Assembly (NCBI GenBank): GCA_030528995.1
Contig: JAUMXR010000005.1
Span: 1 to 37,538 of the forward strand
Source: Candidatus Saccharimonadota bacterium
GTDB taxonomy: Bacteria; Patescibacteriota; Saccharimonadia; Saccharimonadales; Saccharimonadaceae
Length of the DNA stretch: 37,538 nt
Reading direction: 5' to 3'
Below, in pieces: positions 1,466-36,873 of the stretch. Both the position numbers and the translations under genes were made by a program. Position 1 is the first letter of the stretch, and each line of letters begins with the position of its first letter. Below the pieces are notes generated by a model. The model made no database searches, was not told the origin of the DNA, and saw nothing but the letters and a program-made list of their open reading frames with translations.

Positions 1466-2212
1466 TTAGATAGTATCCCCCTCGCAATACCCACTCCGAA
1501 TGTTATAAGTATACGAATCTCTCGATTCATCACCAATTTCTTCCACCCATTTCCTCACCAACTCTTCCGCCTCTTTTACCAAAGGATTTTTGGTATCACA
1601 CGAATACAAATAGACCTGCACCAACTGTAGCCCATCCCTCGTTGCATCAATTTGTTTCACTAAAACCGTCTCTCCTGATACTGTCTTCAACTCATGCGGT
1701 AAATTATTTCTCAAAGACTTGCTAGTACTCCCATAAACCCCCGCGCATTGCTCATCTGAATATTTCATTTCTGACACCAACGGACAAGTAATTTGAACGG
1801 GCAAGTCCGTTATTTCGCCATCCTTAGTATATATATTTACCCTATATGTCTGCTTTAGGGAATCAATATCTACCAAAAAACTAACTCTTCTCTGCAATTT
1901 TGATTCTACATACTTCTTTTGGTGAACAACCGAATCTTCTCTTATTACAATATCTTCCACAACCTCGCTATTGGCTATTAATTCTTGTTCCTCTAGCAAC
2001 CTCAAAAGCTGAGATTTGAAATCATTAGTTTCATCGTTTGATACGCCAACAAGTGCATCAGGATTCGCTATTTTTGCTCTATCATAATCTTTAGGGATAA
2101 TATTCCAAATCAAAAACACCAGTAAAGTCAAAATAAAACAACTTATTAGTGTAATTAGTAAATATCTCCAAAACAGTGGCTTATTTGACATTTTAATCAT
2201 TACGTCATTCAT
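1466..2212 (-). CDS. Single-pass membrane protein with extracytoplasmic domain, paralogue of the upstream gene
   Basis: No known family recognised. One membrane helix near the N-terminus (LLITLISCFILTLLVFLIWN) is followed by ~200 extracytoplasmic residues. The block FLVDIDSLKQTYRVNIY, a following CP motif and several cysteines match the neighbouring 2220-2939 protein (FIVDIDSLHYSFDVTL), so the two are tandem paralogues. I place the start at ATG 2212 (248 aa) because a GGAGG sits about 10 bases before it, overlapping the end of the upstream gene. An in-frame TTG at 2239 would lie ahead of that site. It is the last gene of an operon headed by the multidomain hydrolase, which suggests a role in anchoring, exporting or controlling that enzyme (inference). 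Confidence 0.78.
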   Translation of the reverse strand: MNDVMIKMSNKPLFWRYLLITLISCFILTLLVFLIWNIIPKDYDRAKIANPDALVGVSNDETNDFKSQLLRLLEEQELIANSEVVEDIVIREDSVVHQKKYVESKLQRRVSFLVDIDSLKQTYRVNIYTKDGEITDLPVQITCPLVSEMKYSDEQCAGVYGSTSKSLRNNLPHELKTVSGETVLVKQIDATRDGLQLVQVYLYSCDTKNPLVKEAEELVRKWVEEIGDESRDSYTYNIRSGYCEGDTI

Positions 2213-2219
2213 AATTCCA

Positions 2220-2939
2220 CTACCTCCTACATATATCAATTAATTCCATTTTGTAATCATTCGGATCAAGATATATTGTTTTCAACCATTTTTTAATAGA
2301 ATCAATCACAGACTCTCTCAAGCTTTCGTCCCCACAAGTAGACACCTCAACCCTTAAGTACTTTTCGCCATCAAAAATTCTAAAATCAACTGCATACTTT
2401 TTATCCCCCACATAATCGTAGTAAGGCAAATACCGCGCCAGTTGTGCTTGGGGGCTCTGCGCTATGCATTTTTTATCCTTGTAAATCACATCTAAATAAT
2501 GCGGACATTCGATCAGTATATCAGGATCTTCCGGTTCACTGTCCCCAGAGTCTTTCCGCCAGCTCAACGTAACGTCAAAAGAATAATGCAACGAATCAAT
2601 GTCCACAATAAACTCCGCTTTTTTTTCATTTTCATTTTCACTCTCCTTATATGAGCCTTCCCTTATCGCAGCGTCTGCAAAAACCAACTCATCGTCATTT
2701 GATGCACCATTTATAATCTCTCCTATTCCTTTTTCCACTAAGTGCATATAGCCTTTTGGCGTCGGGGTCATATCTTCAAAGTTTCCTATGTCTACCATCA
2801 CATCGTCCTTAAGAATCGGTCGATTTAATACAATTATCGTCACCACCACAATGACAATAAACAGTGACAAAACCGCACCAGCTACTACTTTAAAAGTTTT
2901 AGAAGAATACTTAATAAGATTCACAAAATCGCCCATCAT
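2220..2939 (-). CDS. Single-pass membrane protein with extracytoplasmic domain
   Basis: This 239-residue protein has a short cytoplasmic N-terminus, one membrane helix (VVAGAVLSLFIVIVVVTIIVL, described here in part) and a ~200-residue outer domain with VDIDSL, IECP and a C-terminal helical segment (SVIDSIKKWLKTIY). These features recur in the next gene, so both belong to one unnamed family. Translation is coupled to the 1007-residue hydrolase: the hydrolase stop TAA overlaps this start (TAATG at 2939). Tight coupling suggests the products are needed in fixed ratio. Possible roles include membrane anchor, chaperone or inhibitor of the hydrolase; the sequence does not decide among them. Confidence 0.8.
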   Translation of the reverse strand: MMGDFVNLIKYSSKTFKVVAGAVLSLFIVIVVVTIIVLNRPILKDDVMVDIGNFEDMTPTPKGYMHLVEKGIGEIINGASNDDELVFADAAIREGSYKESENENEKKAEFIVDIDSLHYSFDVTLSWRKDSGDSEPEDPDILIECPHYLDVIYKDKKCIAQSPQAQLARYLPYYDYVGDKKYAVDFRIFDGEKYLRVEVSTCGDESLRESVIDSIKKWLKTIYLDPNDYKMELIDICRR

Positions 2940-5900
2940 TACTCACCAGTCTCCAAATATCTTTCTATTGCGTCAAAATCGACACTCGCAGGGTAAGCAA
3001 AACTAAAAGGGGATTCCAGGAACGCCTCTATGATATTTGCACTTTTCTTCACAAATCCTGTTCCACTCCCAGCTTCCGTTCCATCACCTTTCCCAACCTT
3101 ATCACGACGACAACTCGCGTGCCCAACTATCCACTCATCACCCTCTTTGCCCAAAATAACACCAGTATGATTTGGTGAAGCACTAAAAATAGCCCAAATC
3201 TTTGGAATCGCCCCCCTAGTAAAGCTACCTTTAGCCTGATCTACAAACATATCGCCATTTCCACCACCATATTTCATAGAAGTAAATTTACCTGCGAAAA
3301 AAGCCGAGAATGTCACGCAGTTCGATCCACCTAGCCCCAATGCCCTATTGTTTCCATTACAATTTATATACCATTGGTCATCTCCTACTATTTTGCGTGA
3401 ACTATCATTTAAATTAGCCCCATAGTTTATCATAAATTGCTTTGCCTGCTCGTAAGTCAAACCTTTATCTTCATCGATATCAGCACTGCCCAATTTACTT
3501 CCTACATATCGATAAATTCCGAATGGTCTGCCCGTACCATCATTGATTTTTCCGGATTCAGTATAACCAGTGCCTCCATTAATCCTTCCTACCCATTCGT
3601 GGGCAGACGCATGAGCCATAATACCAAAATCACCACCATAGCTACCTATATAAACAGCAGCATGCCCAGGACTCGTAAAAATATCTCCTGGCTGCAAATT
3701 ATCATAAGACCCAATGTTTTCTACCTCTTCCCATTCGCTCGAAGCACGGAAAAAGGCATTCTTATCGTGATACCATCCAGCTTTATTATCCTCGTCCAGC
3801 TCCAGATAATATAAAACCGCCGACATAAACCTCCCACAGTCTTCATAATAATCCAGATTAGTGTCATGGCTATCAAAAACCTCCTTATACAAAGGTCTAG
3901 GAACATGCGCACAAGTACCAGTGGAATGATTATATTGTATCCAATTCTGACCATCAAAACACATTCCAGCGTGTTTATCATCACCTTGCCCTACCTGTAC
4001 AGGCCAAGACATCATTGCAGCTGCCTCCGCAATCCTAGCCGCGCCCTTGCTTCTATTTGATCTGCCTTCACACTCATCAGCGCCTTTAGGCAAATCATTC
4101 GTAACCTTAACCCTGCCCTCTGAAGTTGTTCTTTCAATCCCGTTTTTAAAGATATTATCCGCAGTTTCCTGTTGTTCAGAAGTGACCGTTATTTTAGGCT
4201 TTTCTTTGATGAATCTATCAAAGTCTCCTCGATATTTAAACTTTTCACTTTCCCTCACGTATTTCATAAAATCCTGCGCATTTCCTCTTTCACCTTCCCC
4301 GGACTGTTCGTAATCGCCTAATACTTTCGATAAGACATCTTGATAATCCCTATCCTCCCGTTCACCCTTCCAAATTGCAAACTGCAAAAGAGTCCTAATG
4401 TCCTTGGGAATCATATCATACTTGTAGTTATTCGTTCCGCTAAGCGTCTCCATTGATGTAAATCCGCTACTCGATCCAGATGACACGCTTCTAGCAGAGC
4501 ATGAAAACCCGCTCAACTGGCCAAACGCATCATTACCCCAACCAGAACGTCTCTGTTGGACCTCCGCAGAATCACACTTATAGCACACTTCATACTTTTG
4601 CGCAAAATAAACAGCCGCATCTGAAGCATTCATATTGTTAAATCTGTCAATTTCACTTTGCCCTATCTTAGCCAAAAATGTATCATACATCCATTCAACT
4701 TCAAGTTTAACCAAAGCATCGTAATCTTCATCACCGATTTTTGCCAGCAAAGCATCGCCAGGGGTATCATATCCACTCCAACCCAGTCCGGTAAAATCAT
4801 ATGTACCCGGATCTTTAAAGTATTTTATAAGCTGTGGAGCAACATCGTTTATATGGTGCAAATAAGCTGATCTCCCCGCGGTGATACCGAACGCTCCAAC
4901 ACCAGTAGGCTGTCCACCCGAAGGGCAACCCGAATGTGAACCAGATGTACTGCAATCATTATTATAATATCTATCCCAACTCCACCCATTCCCCCAGGTA
5001 TTCGTCCCAGTCATCCCATAACTTTTTAAATTCCCAAAGTCCCAAGACCATAACCAAGTACCTGATTCTGTTCCTACAGGGTTAAACATCCCTTCATTCA
5101 TTACGTTACCGATTATGCCAGCAGTTGCCCCTTCATCAAAATACTGTCGTATCGCAACCCAATACTTCTCTTTTGCCGTCGTTCCGCATAAATCAGTCGA
5201 ACAATCTACTCCAGACAAAAGCCCTAAAATAAAATCAAGAAACGCATCGTGCCCCTCTGCATTAAAATGTGTCCCATCATAATCCAATGTCTGAAAATAC
5301 TCATGATGCTCTGCCAATACACTAGCCCAATCTCCAACTACCAAATTTGGATATTCTGCCGAACTAACATTATCCAAGAAACTATTATCTATTAGATTAG
5401 TACTCCCGGTTTTCCCAATTACGTACGAATTAAGAACAACTACCGTCGTATTGTTCCCGACAAGCTCAAATAGTTTATCCATCCATGCCTTTTGCCACCC
5501 ACCATTATTGGCACCCAATTCAAAAACCAACACTTTACGCAGTTTACCCTGATTCACTATATTTTCTAAAATGTTTAAACCAGATGGACCGTCAGGATTA
5601 TCTCCATACACTTTTTTCCCGCTCCTAACATAATCATTAATAGTGGTCCCATTAAAAGTTCCGCCATAATCAACACCTGGAAAACGTTCTTTTAGGGCAG
5701 CTTCCGCACCCTTACCACTACTATCTTGGAATCTTAACGCAGTCAACGAATCCCCAATCCACGTAATATCGCTTCCGCTCACCGCAGTACAAATCTTTCC
5801 AGGTGTCGGGTTTTTGCATGCATCTGGTTCATAAAACATAATTTCATTCTGCGAATACAAGTCCATCAAAGAATTGCTCAGCGCAAAAACACCACCAGTC

Positions 5901-5962
5901 GGCAACACGGTAAGTAGAATTGCCAAAACAACCAAAACCAATCGCTTAACAAAAAACCTCAT
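2939..5962 (-). CDS. Secreted multidomain hydrolase: SGNH esterase, phage-type lysozyme, two papain-like (CHAP/NlpC-like) domains
   Basis: A 1007-residue exported protein with an N-terminal signal peptide (~1-28). Residues ~60-250 form an SGNH-hydrolase-like domain: nucleophile block WIGDSLTAL (Ser72), Asn152 in ELGANN, and DGTHFNAEGH giving Asp229/His232. Residues ~265-480 resemble the phage tail lysozyme family (GIIGNVMNEGMFNP, candidate catalytic Glu290). Residues ~640-825 are papain-like, with Cys709 (YEDCGRF) and His767 (SPGHAAVYIG). Residues ~840-1000 repeat that plan with Cys882 (GGSNCVTF) and His932 (PNHTGVILG). The family assignments predict deacylation, glycan cleavage and peptide cleavage of peptidoglycan. 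It has a leaderless-type promoter and heads an operon with two membrane proteins. Such an enzyme could remodel the cell's own wall or attack a host's. Domain calls are from motif recognition only. Confidence 0.85.
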   Translation of the reverse strand: MRFFVKRLVLVVLAILLTVLPTGGVFALSNSLMDLYSQNEIMFYEPDACKNPTPGKICTAVSGSDITWIGDSLTALRFQDSSGKGAEAALKERFPGVDYGGTFNGTTINDYVRSGKKVYGDNPDGPSGLNILENIVNQGKLRKVLVFELGANNGGWQKAWMDKLFELVGNNTTVVVLNSYVIGKTGSTNLIDNSFLDNVSSAEYPNLVVGDWASVLAEHHEYFQTLDYDGTHFNAEGHDAFLDFILGLLSGVDCSTDLCGTTAKEKYWVAIRQYFDEGATAGIIGNVMNEGMFNPVGTESGTWLWSWDFGNLKSYGMTGTNTWGNGWSWDRYYNNDCSTSGSHSGCPSGGQPTGVGAFGITAGRSAYLHHINDVAPQLIKYFKDPGTYDFTGLGWSGYDTPGDALLAKIGDEDYDALVKLEVEWMYDTFLAKIGQSEIDRFNNMNASDAAVYFAQKYEVCYKCDSAEVQQRRSGWGNDAFGQLSGFSCSARSVSSGSSSGFTSMETLSGTNNYKYDMIPKDIRTLLQFAIWKGEREDRDYQDVLSKVLGDYEQSGEGERGNAQDFMKYVRESEKFKYRGDFDRFIKEKPKITVTSEQQETADNIFKNGIERTTSEGRVKVTNDLPKGADECEGRSNRSKGAARIAEAAAMMSWPVQVGQGDDKHAGMCFDGQNWIQYNHSTGTCAHVPRPLYKEVFDSHDTNLDYYEDCGRFMSAVLYYLELDEDNKAGWYHDKNAFFRASSEWEEVENIGSYDNLQPGDIFTSPGHAAVYIGSYGGDFGIMAHASAHEWVGRINGGTGYTESGKINDGTGRPFGIYRYVGSKLGSADIDEDKGLTYEQAKQFMINYGANLNDSSRKIVGDDQWYINCNGNNRALGLGGSNCVTFSAFFAGKFTSMKYGGGNGDMFVDQAKGSFTRGAIPKIWAIFSASPNHTGVILGKEGDEWIVGHASCRRDKVGKGDGTEAGSGTGFVKKSANIIEAFLESPFSFAYPASVDFDAIERYLETGE

Positions 5963-5990: not shown

Positions 5991-7382
5991 CTACTGCTTC
6001 AACAACCAATCCACCAACTCGCTGTTTCTTAGCGCACCAGAAATCGAGCCATGATACTGATACGGATAAACTTCCATTTTAGCAGAACCACCCACATTTC
6101 TAATTCTATTAACAAAATTGCTCATGCCGTCTCTCACATTCCAGTCGGAATTCGTTTCATACTCGCCCGCCACTGCCCAAATTTTTGTATGCAAAAAATT
6201 TGAAGGCGATTCTCCAAATTGCGGATAATTACTAACAGGTACAGCCGCCGCAAAATAGTTAGGATAGCTATCCACCATTTTCCAAAGTCCCGTCGCGCCT
6301 CGGCTAAAGCCTACAATATTAATCTTATTCTTGTCCACATTATATTCGCTTACAACCCCATCGATTAGAGTTTTTAAAGTTGACGGACTGTCTGTCCACT
6401 TTGAGCTTACAGTCGGCAAAACGGGCACTAGCGTGAGGTATGGAGTAGAGCCATTGTAGCCATTTATTAAGTATTTTACCATTGGTACATTCGTATTGCT
6501 TACCTTCAAAGAATTTGGATTTCCCCTTTCTCCATCACCATGCAAAAATACGATTAACGGCATTCCACTAGTGGCATTATTTGGCACGTTAATCCAATAC
6601 TGATAATTACGCCCGCTCCGTAATTCATACACCGCATCATAACGAGCAGTGCCACCACCGCCATCTCCACCATCATCACCACCGCCATCTCCGTCATCTC
6701 CACTACTGCCTGCGCTACCGCTACCACTATCCCCACCATCATCTGGCACAATAAAAGGATTTGGAGTCTCTTTCTGCTCGCAAGTTATATCCGCCGAAGC
6801 TTTTTGTCCATCTACCGCAATTGCCGTGATTGTTGCTCCTCCCTCTTTTATACAACGTAATGCCCCACCAGCATAAGCCGACACGATGTTGGGGTCAGAA
6901 CTAACTAAAGAATAAGATTTGTCCTCACCATCTATCTCCACTAATGGTTTTACAGTCTTATTTACCGCCAAAGTCGACGTCTCGAACTTCAAACTAATAC
7001 TCTTCACTGAACTCGTTTTTTTCAACACTCCGCCAGGTAATAACCACTGTAGCCCAGTCCACAACAGCGCAAAAGTTACTAAACCAATCAAAATTTGAAT
7101 CATCCTATTTTTAGCTTTTGTCGTTTTTCCAGGATCTCCCCCAGCAGTCAAGAATTGGACACCAAAGACCATAATCCCCACCAAGCCCAAAACCCCCACG
7201 CCTCCTGCCAAAATATTTATAATCAACAACAAAATATGCCATATCGCTCCACCACCACCTTCTTCGCATTCAAGAATCGAAGTATCAGCTCCCCCACAAG
7301 TCGCCGCAAATACCGGAATACCGCCAAAAACCAAAGTCAACACTATTGGTAAGAGCACTAGCAACGTCCTATTTCTCTTCAT
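5991..7382 (-). CDS. VirB2/TrbC-like membrane leader fused to a BIG2-like domain and an alpha/beta-hydrolase
   Basis: Residues 1-27 are a signal peptide ending FAAT. Residues ~28-120 carry two hydrophobic helices separated by a basic turn (GGDPGKTTKAKNRM), a layout like VirB2/TrbC pilins. Residues ~125-205 resemble a bacterial Ig-like BIG2 domain (YSLVSSDPNIVSAY, ATITAIAVDG). Residues ~210-246 are a Gly/Asp/Ser linker. Residues ~250-463 form an esterase-like alpha/beta-hydrolase with IVFLHGDGERG, nucleophile elbow GFSRG (Ser360) and probable His444 (YHGS). The first ~200 residues align with the 15712-16929 protein, but the C-terminal domains differ completely. Translation is coupled to the upstream small membrane protein (14-base overlap). 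The enzyme domain is predicted to face outside. Substrate unknown; polyester, glycan ester or lipid are all possible. Confidence 0.85.
   Translation of the reverse strand: MKRNRTLLVLLPIVLTLVFGGIPVFAATCGGADTSILECEEGGGGAIWHILLLIINILAGGVGVLGLVGIMVFGVQFLTAGGDPGKTTKAKNRMIQILIGLVTFALLWTGLQWLLPGGVLKKTSSVKSISLKFETSTLAVNKTVKPLVEIDGEDKSYSLVSSDPNIVSAYAGGALRCIKEGGATITAIAVDGQKASADITCEQKETPNPFIVPDDGGDSGSGSAGSSGDDGDGGGDDGGDGGGGTARYDAVYELRSGRNYQYWINVPNNATSGMPLIVFLHGDGERGNPNSLKVSNTNVPMVKYLINGYNGSTPYLTLVPVLPTVSSKWTDSPSTLKTLIDGVVSEYNVDKNKINIVGFSRGATGLWKMVDSYPNYFAAAVPVSNYPQFGESPSNFLHTKIWAVAGEYETNSDWNVRDGMSNFVNRIRNVGGSAKMEVYPYQYHGSISGALRNSELVDWLLKQ
6653..6692. repeat. In-frame 16-bp direct repeat, 24-bp period, in the Gly/Asp linker
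   Basis: CACCACCGCCATCTCC occurs at 6653-6668 and again at 6677-6692, a period of exactly eight codons. It lies within the low-complexity linker of the VirB2-like/esterase fusion. Slippage would change linker length without breaking the frame. Confidence 0.7.
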
Positions 7383-32064: not shown

Positions 32065-32283
32065 ATGGGATATTTAGAAGAAATGTTAGTAAGAAACGGG
32101 GTCATCTACCGTAATTCAAACGGCGAAAGTTCCTATATTGAGGGCAGCCTAGTTTCCAACTCATTAGTTGTCCGTGATTCTAACGGCTGGGTTACTCATC
32201 GTATCGAACGCGCATCAAACGGCGTCGATCTCGTCGTTCGTAATCTCTCTACTGGTCTTGTCGAAACCAGAGTTAGAATCTAA
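32065..32283 (+). CDS. Small hypothetical protein (72 aa)
   Basis: No recognised family. The protein is predicted to be all-beta: after a short N-terminal helix ([11 protein letters not shown]) come alternating polar/hydrophobic strands with Asn-Gly turns ([34 protein letters not shown]), looking like repeated hairpins. No signal peptide. A strong GGAGG lies nine bases before ATG 32065, fixing the start over the ATG at 32017. A possible promoter is TTGCCT (32010) - 17 bp - TACACT (32033). It converges with dnaJ and the two stop codons overlap (32280-32283). Confidence 0.72.
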
Positions 32284-33206
32284 CCCCAAAACCCACGCTT
32301 CTTGCTTTTCTTGAATTCTTCTAGCAATTCTTTCTGCTTTTTCGACAGATTCTTCGGCGTCTCCACAATAATCGTCACAATATGTGGCCCTCTATCCCCA
32401 TCTGCCCTAAACGGTACACCGTGACCCGACAGTTTAAATGGCGTGCCAGACTGCGTTCCTGCCGGTACTTTCATCGTTACTACTCCGTCTACCGTCTCCA
32501 CATCAATCTCGCAACCAAGTGCCGCATCCACCATCCCAATGCGTTCTTCCGACAATATAATCGAGCCTTCTCTCGTCAAATGTTTGTGTGGCTTCACTCG
32601 TACCCTCACATACAAATCCCCCGGCTCCGTTCCGCCTTCTGGCGCCGGACCGCCTTTTCCGTGTAACCGAATCGACATTCCATCATCAATACCAGCTGGA
32701 ATTTTTACTTTCAAATCTTTTCCCTCTACACTGACAGATTTACTTGTGCCAAATATCGCTTCTTCAAAAGTTAAAGTCACACTTGTCTGATAATCCGCAC
32801 CCCGTCTCGCTCTTCTTGCCCCGCCATTACCGAACCCAAACAAACTTCCCAAAATATCATCAAACGCCCCACCGCCACCAAAGTCAAAGTTAAAAGTCTG
32901 ACCATTATAATTAAATGCTCCCCCACTAAATGGGTTTCCTGAGAACCCACCAGCACCGCCTGCCCCACCAAAACCAGCTCCCCCCACTCCCGCATGCCCG
33001 AACTGATCATATCGTGCCCGCTTCTGCTTATCAGAAAGCACATCATGCGCCTCATTAATCTCTTTAAATTTTGCTTCTGCTTCTTTATCTCCAGGATTTT
33101 TATCCGGATGATACTTCACCGCTAGCTTACGGTAAGCTTTTTTAATCTCATCATCTGACGCATTTTTTGACACGCCAAGCACTTCGTAATAATCTCGTTT
33201 TGCCAT
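32280..33206 (-). CDS. dnaJ: DnaJ-type co-chaperone without zinc-finger domain
   Basis: Stimulates DnaK's ATPase and delivers substrates. The 308 residues begin with a complete J domain ([16 protein letters not shown] at 33-35). A Gly/Phe-rich region (~70-135) is followed by two C-terminal beta domains ([58 protein letters not shown]). The four CXXCXGXG zinc motifs of classical DnaJ are absent, so this is a type II protein like CbpA. A CIRCE operator lies upstream of a leaderless-type -10 box, placing it with dnaK in the HrcA regulon. It may be the main DnaK partner or a second J protein. Confidence 0.94.
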
Positions 33207-33254: not shown

Positions 33255-35093
33255 TTAATTTGCCGGATTTGGTAACGGCTTACTCATAGGGTTAGTTGTA
33301 ATCAATCCCTCTTCCGTCTCCGACGCAATCACCTGAATGTGGACATGATTTTGCCCCGCAAAGAATAGTCCTTGCCCCACCGGGAAATTCGATAATCGAC
33401 GTTTTTCCTCTTCGGTCAATTTAAATACGTCCGACAATACGTCTACCGCCGACGCCGATTGTTTCAAAAGTAGTTGCATCGAAGAGTTCGATACAATCGC
33501 CCTACCCATCTTCGAACCCATGAAGTCTTCCACGTCCTGCGAAATCGTCGTTAATCCCAAATAGTACTTACGAGCACGTTTAGCGAGTGAGAACATGAAA
33601 TTCGCCGAATCCTCATACTGCATCAATTGCCAAGCCTCATCAATAATCAAAAGTCGTTTCTTCTGTTCAGCCCGCACAATATTCCAAATATGTGACAAAA
33701 CAATATACATCGCCACTGGACGAAGTTCATCCTCAAGATCTCGAATATTAAACACCACCATCTGATTATTGATATCAATATTGGATTGTTGAGAGAAAAT
33801 TCCCGCAAAAGTCCCAGTCGTATATTTACGCAGTCTCTGTGCCAAATTCGGCCCAGAACCACCCATGTGTAGCAAAGTGTCATACAAATTAGCAATCGTC
33901 GGCGGCGTCGACTGATGCGTCAACGGATCAGAAGTAATCCCAGCTCTAGCATAAGTATCTATCAAAGCTTGGTCCAAGTCCGCTTCTTCGTTAGCGGTCA
34001 ATGCTGGCACTACCTGGCCTGATGCTGTGGCCTGATTCCCCCCTAACATCAATCTGAATAAGCCATGCAAAGTCACCAAATTCGCACGCAAAGCATCGTT
34101 TGAATCTTCTGCATCTACTACTTTAGGCAAATCAAACGGGTTAATCCTCACATCCGAGTTTAATGATAATCTAATATATGAACCACCCACCGCATCGCAT
34201 AATTTCTGGTACTCATTCTCTGGGTCAATAATCAAAACCTCAGCCCCAATCATCATTGTTCGCAATGCTTCCAGCTTCACTGCAAAAGATTTACCTGCAC
34301 CAGATTTCGCAAACACCACCATATTAGCGTTCTCAAGCGAAAACCTATCAAATATCACCAAGCCATTGTTGTGCATATTCACACCATACAGAATACCCTT
34401 ATCCTGCGTCAAATCAGCCGAGGTAAACGGGAAAGAAGTCGAAATCGCACCAGTATTCATGTTCCGTCGAATCTGCAATTGGTCCGTGCATTGTGGCATT
34501 GTTGAGTTCAAACCTTGCTCTTGCTGGGCATTAGCTACCTTCGAAAACACCATTTGTTGACCAAAAATCGTCTCAATCTTCTGCTGCACAAATTTCAACT
34601 CGTCTAAAGAATCTGCCCATAAAGTCACGTATAATCCGAAACGGAAAAATTTCTCCGCCCCTAGCTGCAATTGGTCACGCAACTCTTCCGTATCAGCAAG
34701 TGCCGCTTCAAGTTCCGGGTCACGCACTTTGCCTTTTTCAATGTTCAGATTCATTGAAGCTTCTAGTTGAGTTGCTTTAGTACGCAAATTCTTCATCACT
34801 ACCGCTGATTCTACCGGATAAATATACATCGATACATCAATCACTTCATCAATATTAATAATTGGCGACAACCAACCAGTGTAAATTGAACGCGGATAAC
34901 CATATACATATAAAGTTCGGCCATATTTATTTCCTAACCTGAAATAATCCGAATGAATCTCAATCGCTGAAGGCGAAATCAAATCCCTTAAAGTATTTGT
35001 ACCCTGCTCAAACGCTCTCTGAATTTCCGCCGCCTCCATCGCCTCCTGTTGCGCTGCAATTTCTGCCGCTGAAAGTTTCTTTTTCTTACTCAT
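33255..35093 (-). CDS. VirB4/TraC-like type IV secretion ATPase
   Basis: 612 residues. VirB4-family ATPases power assembly or substrate transfer in type IV secretion systems. The N-terminal ~240 residues match the VirB4 non-catalytic domain (LYVYGYPRSIYTGWLSPIIN). The ATPase has Walker A AKSGAGKS (262-269), IIDPENEYQ after it, INPFDLP, Walker B RLLIIDEAW (480-488), and the conserved TTISQDVEDFM and IVSNSSMQLLLKQS. The start is preceded by AGGGAG, and the gene overlaps the upstream gene by eight bases. No relaxase or VirD4 coupling protein is in the window, so a protein or surface-structure role is as likely as DNA transfer (inference). VirB2-like proteins occur at 5991-7382 and 15712-16929. 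Confidence 0.92.
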   Translation of the reverse strand: MSKKKKLSAAEIAAQQEAMEAAEIQRAFEQGTNTLRDLISPSAIEIHSDYFRLGNKYGRTLYVYGYPRSIYTGWLSPIINIDEVIDVSMYIYPVESAVVMKNLRTKATQLEASMNLNIEKGKVRDPELEAALADTEELRDQLQLGAEKFFRFGLYVTLWADSLDELKFVQQKIETIFGQQMVFSKVANAQQEQGLNSTMPQCTDQLQIRRNMNTGAISTSFPFTSADLTQDKGILYGVNMHNNGLVIFDRFSLENANMVVFAKSGAGKSFAVKLEALRTMMIGAEVLIIDPENEYQKLCDAVGGSYIRLSLNSDVRINPFDLPKVVDAEDSNDALRANLVTLHGLFRLMLGGNQATASGQVVPALTANEEADLDQALIDTYARAGITSDPLTHQSTPPTIANLYDTLLHMGGSGPNLAQRLRKYTTGTFAGIFSQQSNIDINNQMVVFNIRDLEDELRPVAMYIVLSHIWNIVRAEQKKRLLIIDEAWQLMQYEDSANFMFSLAKRARKYYLGLTTISQDVEDFMGSKMGRAIVSNSSMQLLLKQSASAVDVLSDVFKLTEEEKRRLSNFPVGQGLFFAGQNHVHIQVIASETEEGLITTNPMSKPLPNPAN

Positions 35094-36012: not shown

Positions 36013-36873
36013 TTAGTGTAACGATATAAAAACTTCGCCCTCATCTTTTTTATTAATTCGTTCGGCCTCTTTTGCGATTGTTGCAACAGAATAATCAGGA
36101 TTATTTGCTAACTCTATTATACTAGATTTTAAAGGTTTTTGCTCAACTTTTTCTCGATCCTCGTGCTCTTCACTTTCATGTTTTTCCACAGGTTTATTCT
36201 CAATTGAAGCAACCGGCCCTGGTTCCACGCTAGAACTTAATACTTCACCATTGGTCTTCATGATGTTTACCGGGCCAATGTTCTCAACCTTATCTATCGC
36301 TTCTCGCATTTCTTTTATAACTTCAGCATGTCTTTCGTTTTCATCCTTCATAATCGTCTCGCCTAAATTATCAAAGTGTTTCGTTTCAAACATATCTTCT
36401 GCCATGCTTGCCTCGGCCTTCAGCTCATCTCGCATTGAATTATTAGCCACACCTTTAATTGCATACCCCTCTGTGTCCACGATATCCGCCAAGAACGACA
36501 GCCGATGTGTCGCCTCTTCACCCGTAATATCCCTAGCCCTGTTATCCTCTTCAATCTTTGGTGCAGTTATTAAAATCATGTTATTTTTTTGTCCTGGTTC
36601 CCATTTTCGTGACCTTGGCTTCAAATAATAACTTAGTAACGCCGCCAAATATGTCTCCATAGGCTGATCTTTCTTTAGCGGCAACGCCAATGCACCAAAA
36701 AACAATAAAAATGGTACAGGTATAATTGCTAACATTGGGAAAATTTGGAATAGTCCCACCGCCAATGCTATCAAACCACCGCAAATCAAAAGATAAACAA
36801 ACTGCCGAAAAATCAACGGCCCGATTAATTTGTCATCCGCCTCAACATCCTGAGGCACCTTATATTGCGCCAT
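36013..36873 (-). CDS. PrgI-family membrane protein (VirB3-like) with long C-terminal extension
   Basis: 286 residues. The first ~100 match the PrgI family, the VirB3-like inner-membrane component of Gram-positive type IV systems: MAQYKVPQDVEADDKLIGPLIFRQ (described in part), two closely spaced helices (~25-70), then QPMETYLAALLSYYLKPRSRKW. The remaining ~170 residues are hydrophilic, acidic and probably extended, longer than in typical PrgI proteins. It is the first gene of the PrgI-TraC-VirB4 unit and has a leaderless-type promoter (TGGTATTAT). Confidence 0.88.
   Translation of the reverse strand: MAQYKVPQDVEADDKLIGPLIFRQFVYLLICGGLIALAVGLFQIFPMLAIIPVPFLLFFGALALPLKKDQPMETYLAALLSYYLKPRSRKWEPGQKNNMILITAPKIEEDNRARDITGEEATHRLSFLADIVDTEGYAIKGVANNSMRDELKAEASMAEDMFETKHFDNLGETIMKDENERHAEVIKEMREAIDKVENIGPVNIMKTNGEVLSSSVEPGPVASIENKPVEKHESEEHEDREKVEQKPLKSSIIELANNPDYSVATIAKEAERINKKDEGEVFISLH

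Follow-up and report, generated by a model that had tools for sequence, protein, structure and literature searches.

The window analysed here is a stretch of 37,538 nucleotides from a Candidatus Saccharimonadota bacterium (assembly GCA_030528995.1, contig JAUMXR010000005.1, positions 1 to 37,538 of the forward strand), whose reduced genome amounts to 873 kb in 55 contigs. Its subject is P0001, an exported hydrolase of four domains, together with two small membrane proteins encoded directly downstream, P3 and P4, and the relation of the three to the type IV secretion system (T4SS) of the same genome. The open reading frame, its export signal and the order of its domains (an SGNH esterase, a phage-tail-type lysozyme and two papain-like domains, CHAP1 and CHAP2) had been proposed from the sequence alone and with no strand given. 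The frame lies on the minus strand and is not a chance one, because other genomes hold homologues of equal length and domain order, and the export signal and four domains are borne out by alignments, by profiles of relatives and by a fold match (Table 1).

Table 1. Features of the window (aa, amino acids; Ig, immunoglobulin-like; residue numbers are those of P0001)
Feature	Coordinates	Strand	Basis or remark
P0001, exported four-domain hydrolase, 1007 aa	2939..5962	-	ATG at 5962, stop 2939-2941; homologues exist
Sec-type signal peptide, residues 1-27 (VFA-LS)	5882..5962	-	sequence, alignment, model helix 2-19
N-terminal signature YSQNEIMFYEPDAC, residues 36-49	5816..5857	-	common to differently built relatives
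SGNH domain, residues 59-255 (S72, D229, H232), OatA-C-like	5198..5788	-	Pfam, alignments, fold match
Phage-tail-lysozyme/muramidase-like domain, residues 256-505 (E290)	4448..5197	-	alignments, Pfam in orthologue L051, weak phi29 gp13 match
Helical linker, residues 506-640	4043..4447	-	AlphaFold2 model
Papain-like domain 1 (CHAP1), residues 641-822 (C709/H767), NlpC/P60-like	3497..4042	-	alignments, model, Pfam scores of relatives
Papain-like domain 2 (CHAP2), residues 823-1007 (C882/H932), CHAP-like	2942..3496	-	alignments, model, Pfam scores of relatives
P3, 239-aa single-pass membrane partner	2220..2939	-	start abuts hydrolase stop; conserved downstream neighbour
P4, 257-aa P3 paralogue	1466..2239	-	overlaps P3; sequence comparison
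T4SS pilin + Ig (Big_2) + PHB-type esterase fusion	5991..7382	-	directly upstream of P0001; absent at L051
T4SS pilin + Ig fusion, C-terminal domain ~180 aa	15712-16929	+	profile match
DnaJ	32280..33206	-	directly after VirB4; marks the relatives' site of the hydrolase/partner pair
VirB4 of the genome's T4SS	33255..35093	-	no hydrolase/partner pair behind it
PrgI (VirB3-like)	36013..36873	-	upstream of VirB4; PF12666 36.2 bits, over cut-off

All eight catalytic residues named in the original prediction (S72, D229, H232, E290, C709, H767, C882 and H932) are present, and none of them varies in an alignment of four sequences with this architecture at 29-37% identity. An alignment of 38 rows kept S72, H232, E290, C709, H767, C882 and H932 in nearly all covering rows, while D229 was the weakest of the set, being poorly aligned there and standing against E in the orthologue at locus L051.

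Profile searches upheld the domain assignments in part. P0001 itself stayed below the Pfam cut-offs, with 20.6 bits for the SGNH domain and 14.3 bits against a cut-off of 28.2 for the Phage tail lysozyme family PF18013, and its papain-like domains had no Pfam match. Its relatives passed for lysozyme, with 72.9 bits for PF18013 (Phage_lysozyme2) in the L051 orthologue, and for CHAP, with 31.5 bits against a cut-off of 26 in the CHAP2 region of the homologue at L055; the CHAP1 region of that homologue fell just short of NlpC/P60 (19.9 bits, cut-off 23). These relatives bridge the Pfam gap, and domain 3 is therefore taken as NlpC/P60-like and domain 4 as CHAP-like. P0001 had no match in PHROGs or NCBIfam, and a phmmer search of it against the PDB returned chance matches only.

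An AlphaFold2 model built with the 38 rows had a mean predicted local distance difference test score (pLDDT) of 76.6 and a predicted template modelling score of 0.43, with good domain cores and poor linkers, as well as a poor segment at residues 300-355. Read from positions along its elements, helices begin at C709 and C882, strands begin at H767 and H932, a helix ends at E290 and S72 comes after the first strand, so that in the model the catalytic residues occupy the secondary-structure places required by their families. The best fold match of the SGNH part is the C-terminal domain of OatA (PDB 6vjp, Z 15.8, root-mean-square deviation 2.3 over 149 residues; 5ufy, Z 14.9), ahead of the next entry at 13.3. 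P0001 thus has an SGNH fold of the OatA/PatB type with the Ser-His(-Asp) residues and the GxN block, although D229 varies in some relatives. The VIA list for the whole model was taken up by SGNH matches, leaving the other domains barely represented, and Foldseek found nothing under E 0.001 when the whole model was compared with the PDB. Among the fold matches, the cysteine domains led to the CHAP endolysin 8xyf and the lysozyme, weakly, to phi29 gp13. At the level of sequence and fold, P0001 is an exported protein with glycosidase and peptidase/amidase domains.

The link to secretion comes from the position of relatives. In at least 22 of the 33 genomes of the genus that bear VirB4, a hydrolase homologous to P0001 is encoded behind VirB4, within ~6 kb and on its strand. 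Most other families of the order have an exported hydrolase (CHAP, NlpC, C39, M23, glucosaminidase or amidase) at this site and, next to it, a membrane partner some 220 residues long; recF and dnaN come after these, on the opposite strand. A protein of ~790-1360 aa stands between VirB4 and the hydrolase at L078:3979-8046 and at the equivalent site in other families; the one that was scanned had an M23 peptidase and matched Exo_endo_phos weakly. The genome of L051 resembles that of the window in having DnaJ directly after VirB4 and a hydrolase-P3-P4 unit beside ruvB. The simplest reading of these gene orders is that the pair left the T4SS locus in the window's lineage; the same picture would result had the pair been duplicated and the copy at VirB4 then lost.

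P3 and P4 are bitopic, each having a single membrane helix at the N-terminus and an extracellular portion, and their pairing with the hydrolase follows its last domain: a gene of the P3/P4 type lies within 100 bp downstream of 26 of the 27 hydrolases that end in CHAP2 as against 3 of the 20 that lack it, a contrast whose Fisher p-value is inflated by the shared ancestry of the loci. Wherever CHAP2 occurs it is the last domain (27/27). The unit is kept in the order P3-hydrolase-P4 at L032 and L052 of genome G035, which is 90% complete and in which two weak pilins were found. The predicted fold of P3 (pLDDT 91) consists of a beta-alpha-beta roll and a small C-terminal alpha-beta domain. Its first folded part, a beta-alpha-beta-beta-beta-beta roll, aligned with the cystatin 3gax (Z 4.9, root-mean-square deviation 3.0 over 81 residues), but cystatin and NTF2-like chains were tied at a weak Z of 4-5, and a Z below 8 may mean a common arrangement only. 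Foldseek and VIA returned weak, tied folds for P3, among them the ring-forming PrgK domain of type III secretion; no VirB8 chain was among the structural matches listed, and neither P3 nor P4 had a Pfam VirB8 match. Since only weak tied folds were found, P3 was adopted neither as a VirB8 nor as a cystatin.

Cystatins are the classical inhibitors of papain, and the alignment of the P3 roll with them would fit an arrangement in which P0001 is a polymorphic secreted antibacterial effector, and P3 and P4 are membrane-anchored immunity proteins that protect the producer and its kin by blocking the final, CHAP domain. The shuffling of domains described below, the fixed last place of CHAP2, the specific downstream gene and the equally fast divergence of enzyme and partners would all agree with such an arrangement. 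Against it, the C-terminal domain of P3 and P4 is shared across the order with T4SS-locus partners of other families (hhalign 94.7%, and profile matches), whose N-terminal parts are PEGA or Ig-like and not cystatin-like; the low Z may reflect no more than a common arrangement, and here one hydrolase has two partners. I consider this effector account unlikely.

The hydrolases are mosaics. Profiles built from each of the four domains resolved 50 distinct proteins of the fetched loci, the window's included and a few cut by contig ends, into 19 domain strings, among them LYS-SGNH-CHAP2, SGNH-CHAP1, LYS-CHAP1-CHAP1-CHAP2 and CHAP1-SGNH-LYS-CHAP1-CHAP2, and in some relatives a C39-like peptidase replaces the last domain. 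A Y(S/A)QNNI.FYDP signature follows the signal peptide in the hydrolases of L032-L077 despite their differing domains and perhaps serves in sorting; it was counted in 31 of the 50, a figure biased by the 27 loci that were found through patterns containing it. Its DNA pattern has just two copies in the window's genome, where a second SGNH protein with a signature of the YSQNEIMFYEPDAC type is cut by a contig end (L049:1-843, G000:C14).

Within the genus, 29 of the 35 other genomes had a match to the family; of 24 genomes from the order's other families none did at this sensitivity, and a scan of 287 genomes across the phylum gave matches in five, all from the same family as the window's organism. 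The relatives that have names belong to the Saccharibacteria, Ca. Nanosyncoccus alces being one of them, and come mostly from the ruminant gut, which fits the epibiont setting that had been supposed. Searches with tblastn found nothing in 50,697 phage records and two weak single-domain matches in 72,556 plasmid records; a phage origin of P0001 was dropped, given the missing phage match and the chromosomal housekeeping neighbours. No wide spread of relatives as autolysins of free-living bacteria was seen in any of these collections or in genomes outside the phylum, which were scanned only with motif-biased patterns from the N-terminal region.

At the same chromosomal place, the window and L051 are 97% identical in DnaK, 94% in RuvB and 82% in bPH, and 42% in the hydrolase, 43% in P3 and 49% in P4; VirB6, which is also partly exposed, has 67% identity over the matched part in the same genome as L051. 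The catalytic Ser, His, Glu and Cys are kept across this distance and D229 is not. The enzyme has diverged in step with its partners and at an unusually high rate, which would suit a host-facing or partner-matched role and is no proof of one.

Exported hydrolases of such folds commonly act on the organism's own wall, and P0001 could likewise remodel it as an autolysin, in division or in general growth, with no tie to a host. At another site the genome encodes one stand-alone Acyl_transf_3 protein, with which the own wall or other glycans could be O-acetylated. Domain order and content differ, however, between congeneric species whose VirB4 proteins are 85-90% identical to one reference, which is unexpected of own-wall enzymes, and both the T4SS-locus association of relatives and the lack of relatives outside the family among the 287 phylum genomes speak against pure self-remodelling, which I regard as quite unlikely.

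P0001 is thus probably a wall-opener of the T4SS rather than an ordinary housekeeping enzyme, and the reading I favour, at slightly better than even confidence, is that of an expanded and relocated PrgK/VirB1-like T4SS wall hydrolase acting at the contact between T4SS and host. PrgK belongs to the T4SS of pCF10, where it is a wall hydrolase with a phi29-gp13-like muramidase and is bound by the VirB8-like PrgL (PMC11323569). On this reading P0001 would be exported by Sec, and P3 and P4, which may bind it as tether or regulator, would probably keep it at the membrane or steer it there. The OatA-like esterase would then strip O-acetyl groups from N-acetylmuramic acid, by which muramidases are often inhibited according to the PrgK authors (PMC11323569), the phage-tail-type muramidase would cleave the glycan, and stem peptides or cross-bridges would be cleaved by the NlpC/P60-like and CHAP-like domains, opening the peptidoglycan at the T4SS/host contact. 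Penetration of the host wall, as originally proposed, remains plausible and the host wall may be at least one target, but the proposal was incomplete: the relatives form a family of T4SS-locus hydrolases, own-wall opening for the T4SS appears an equally likely part of the job, and sequence does not settle host wall against own wall.

Several observations weigh against this T4SS wall-opener. P0001 shares its contig with VirB4 but lies 27 kb from it, with P3 and P4 beside ruvB, so that its T4SS link rests on relatives; G035 has the hydrolase unit with few pilins and no detectable VirB4, though an assembly gap is possible at its completeness; and the modelled fold of P3 could not be placed as VirB8-like. 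The CHAP and LytM domains of PrgK, moreover, showed no activity and down-regulate its muramidase (PMC11323569), so conserved residues are no guarantee of activity and may serve binding. P0001 might accordingly be mostly a binding or scaffold protein in which the muramidase alone is active and the other domains bind the wall and regulate it. Its catalytic residues are all conserved, unlike those of the degenerate PrgK LytM, and I hold the scaffold account to be very unlikely.

Enzyme-bearing pilins seem to recur. In addition to the pilin-esterase gene of the window, which was dropped as a fixed part of the unit because the syntenic L051 locus is without it, T4SS pilins are fused to an NlpC/CHAP1-like domain (L127:12086-13189), to a VanY-type D,D-carboxypeptidase (L064:8026-9039) and to a glycerophosphodiesterase (L130:465-1679). 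It is a tentative thought that the T4SSs of Saccharibacteria come with a quickly evolving kit of interchangeable wall-cutting parts, fitted to each host and made of mosaic hydrolases with matched membrane partners and supplemented by pilins fused to enzymes (NlpC/CHAP-like, VanY, esterase, glycerophosphodiesterase). VirB1 and VirB8 homologues are reported to be rarely found at T4SS loci of Patescibacteria (PMC12102498), and as part of the same tentative view the hydrolase/partner pair might fill the VirB1, and perhaps the VirB8, role. If so, the domain make-up of the pair would predict host wall chemistry. For the question of how epibiotic Patescibacteria get through the envelope of the host, a recurring, fast-diversifying pair beside VirB4 supplies concrete genes, and with it one can test whether the domains of the hydrolase track the chemistry of the host wall.

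Among the nearest known systems is PrgK, which is of the MPF-FATA VirB1-type. Like PrgK, P0001 is an exported multidomain hydrolase of a T4SS-linked family that combines a phage-tail-type muramidase with CHAP and has a membrane partner with an extracellular domain. Unlike PrgK (LytM-MUR-CHAP), it adds the SGNH and NlpC-like domains, its signal peptide looks cleavable, and its unit is chromosomal and away from VirB4. It shares with phi29 gp13 and the PF18013 phage-tail lysozymes the motif A.GI.GN..E...NP, which holds E290, and differs from them in scoring under the Pfam cut-off and in matching no phage genome. OatA carries a fused membrane acyltransferase-3 domain; in P0001 the SGNH domain is fused to wall hydrolases instead, which would favour activity as an esterase rather than as a transferase. 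In Ca. Southlakia epibionticum ML1, a member of the same wider bacterial group, T4SS genes are essential on the host, and homologues of peptidases and lysozymes that immediately follow virB4 are reported to be essential for epibiotic growth (PMC12102498 citing Wang 2023); P0001 is a four-domain version that lies elsewhere in its genome.

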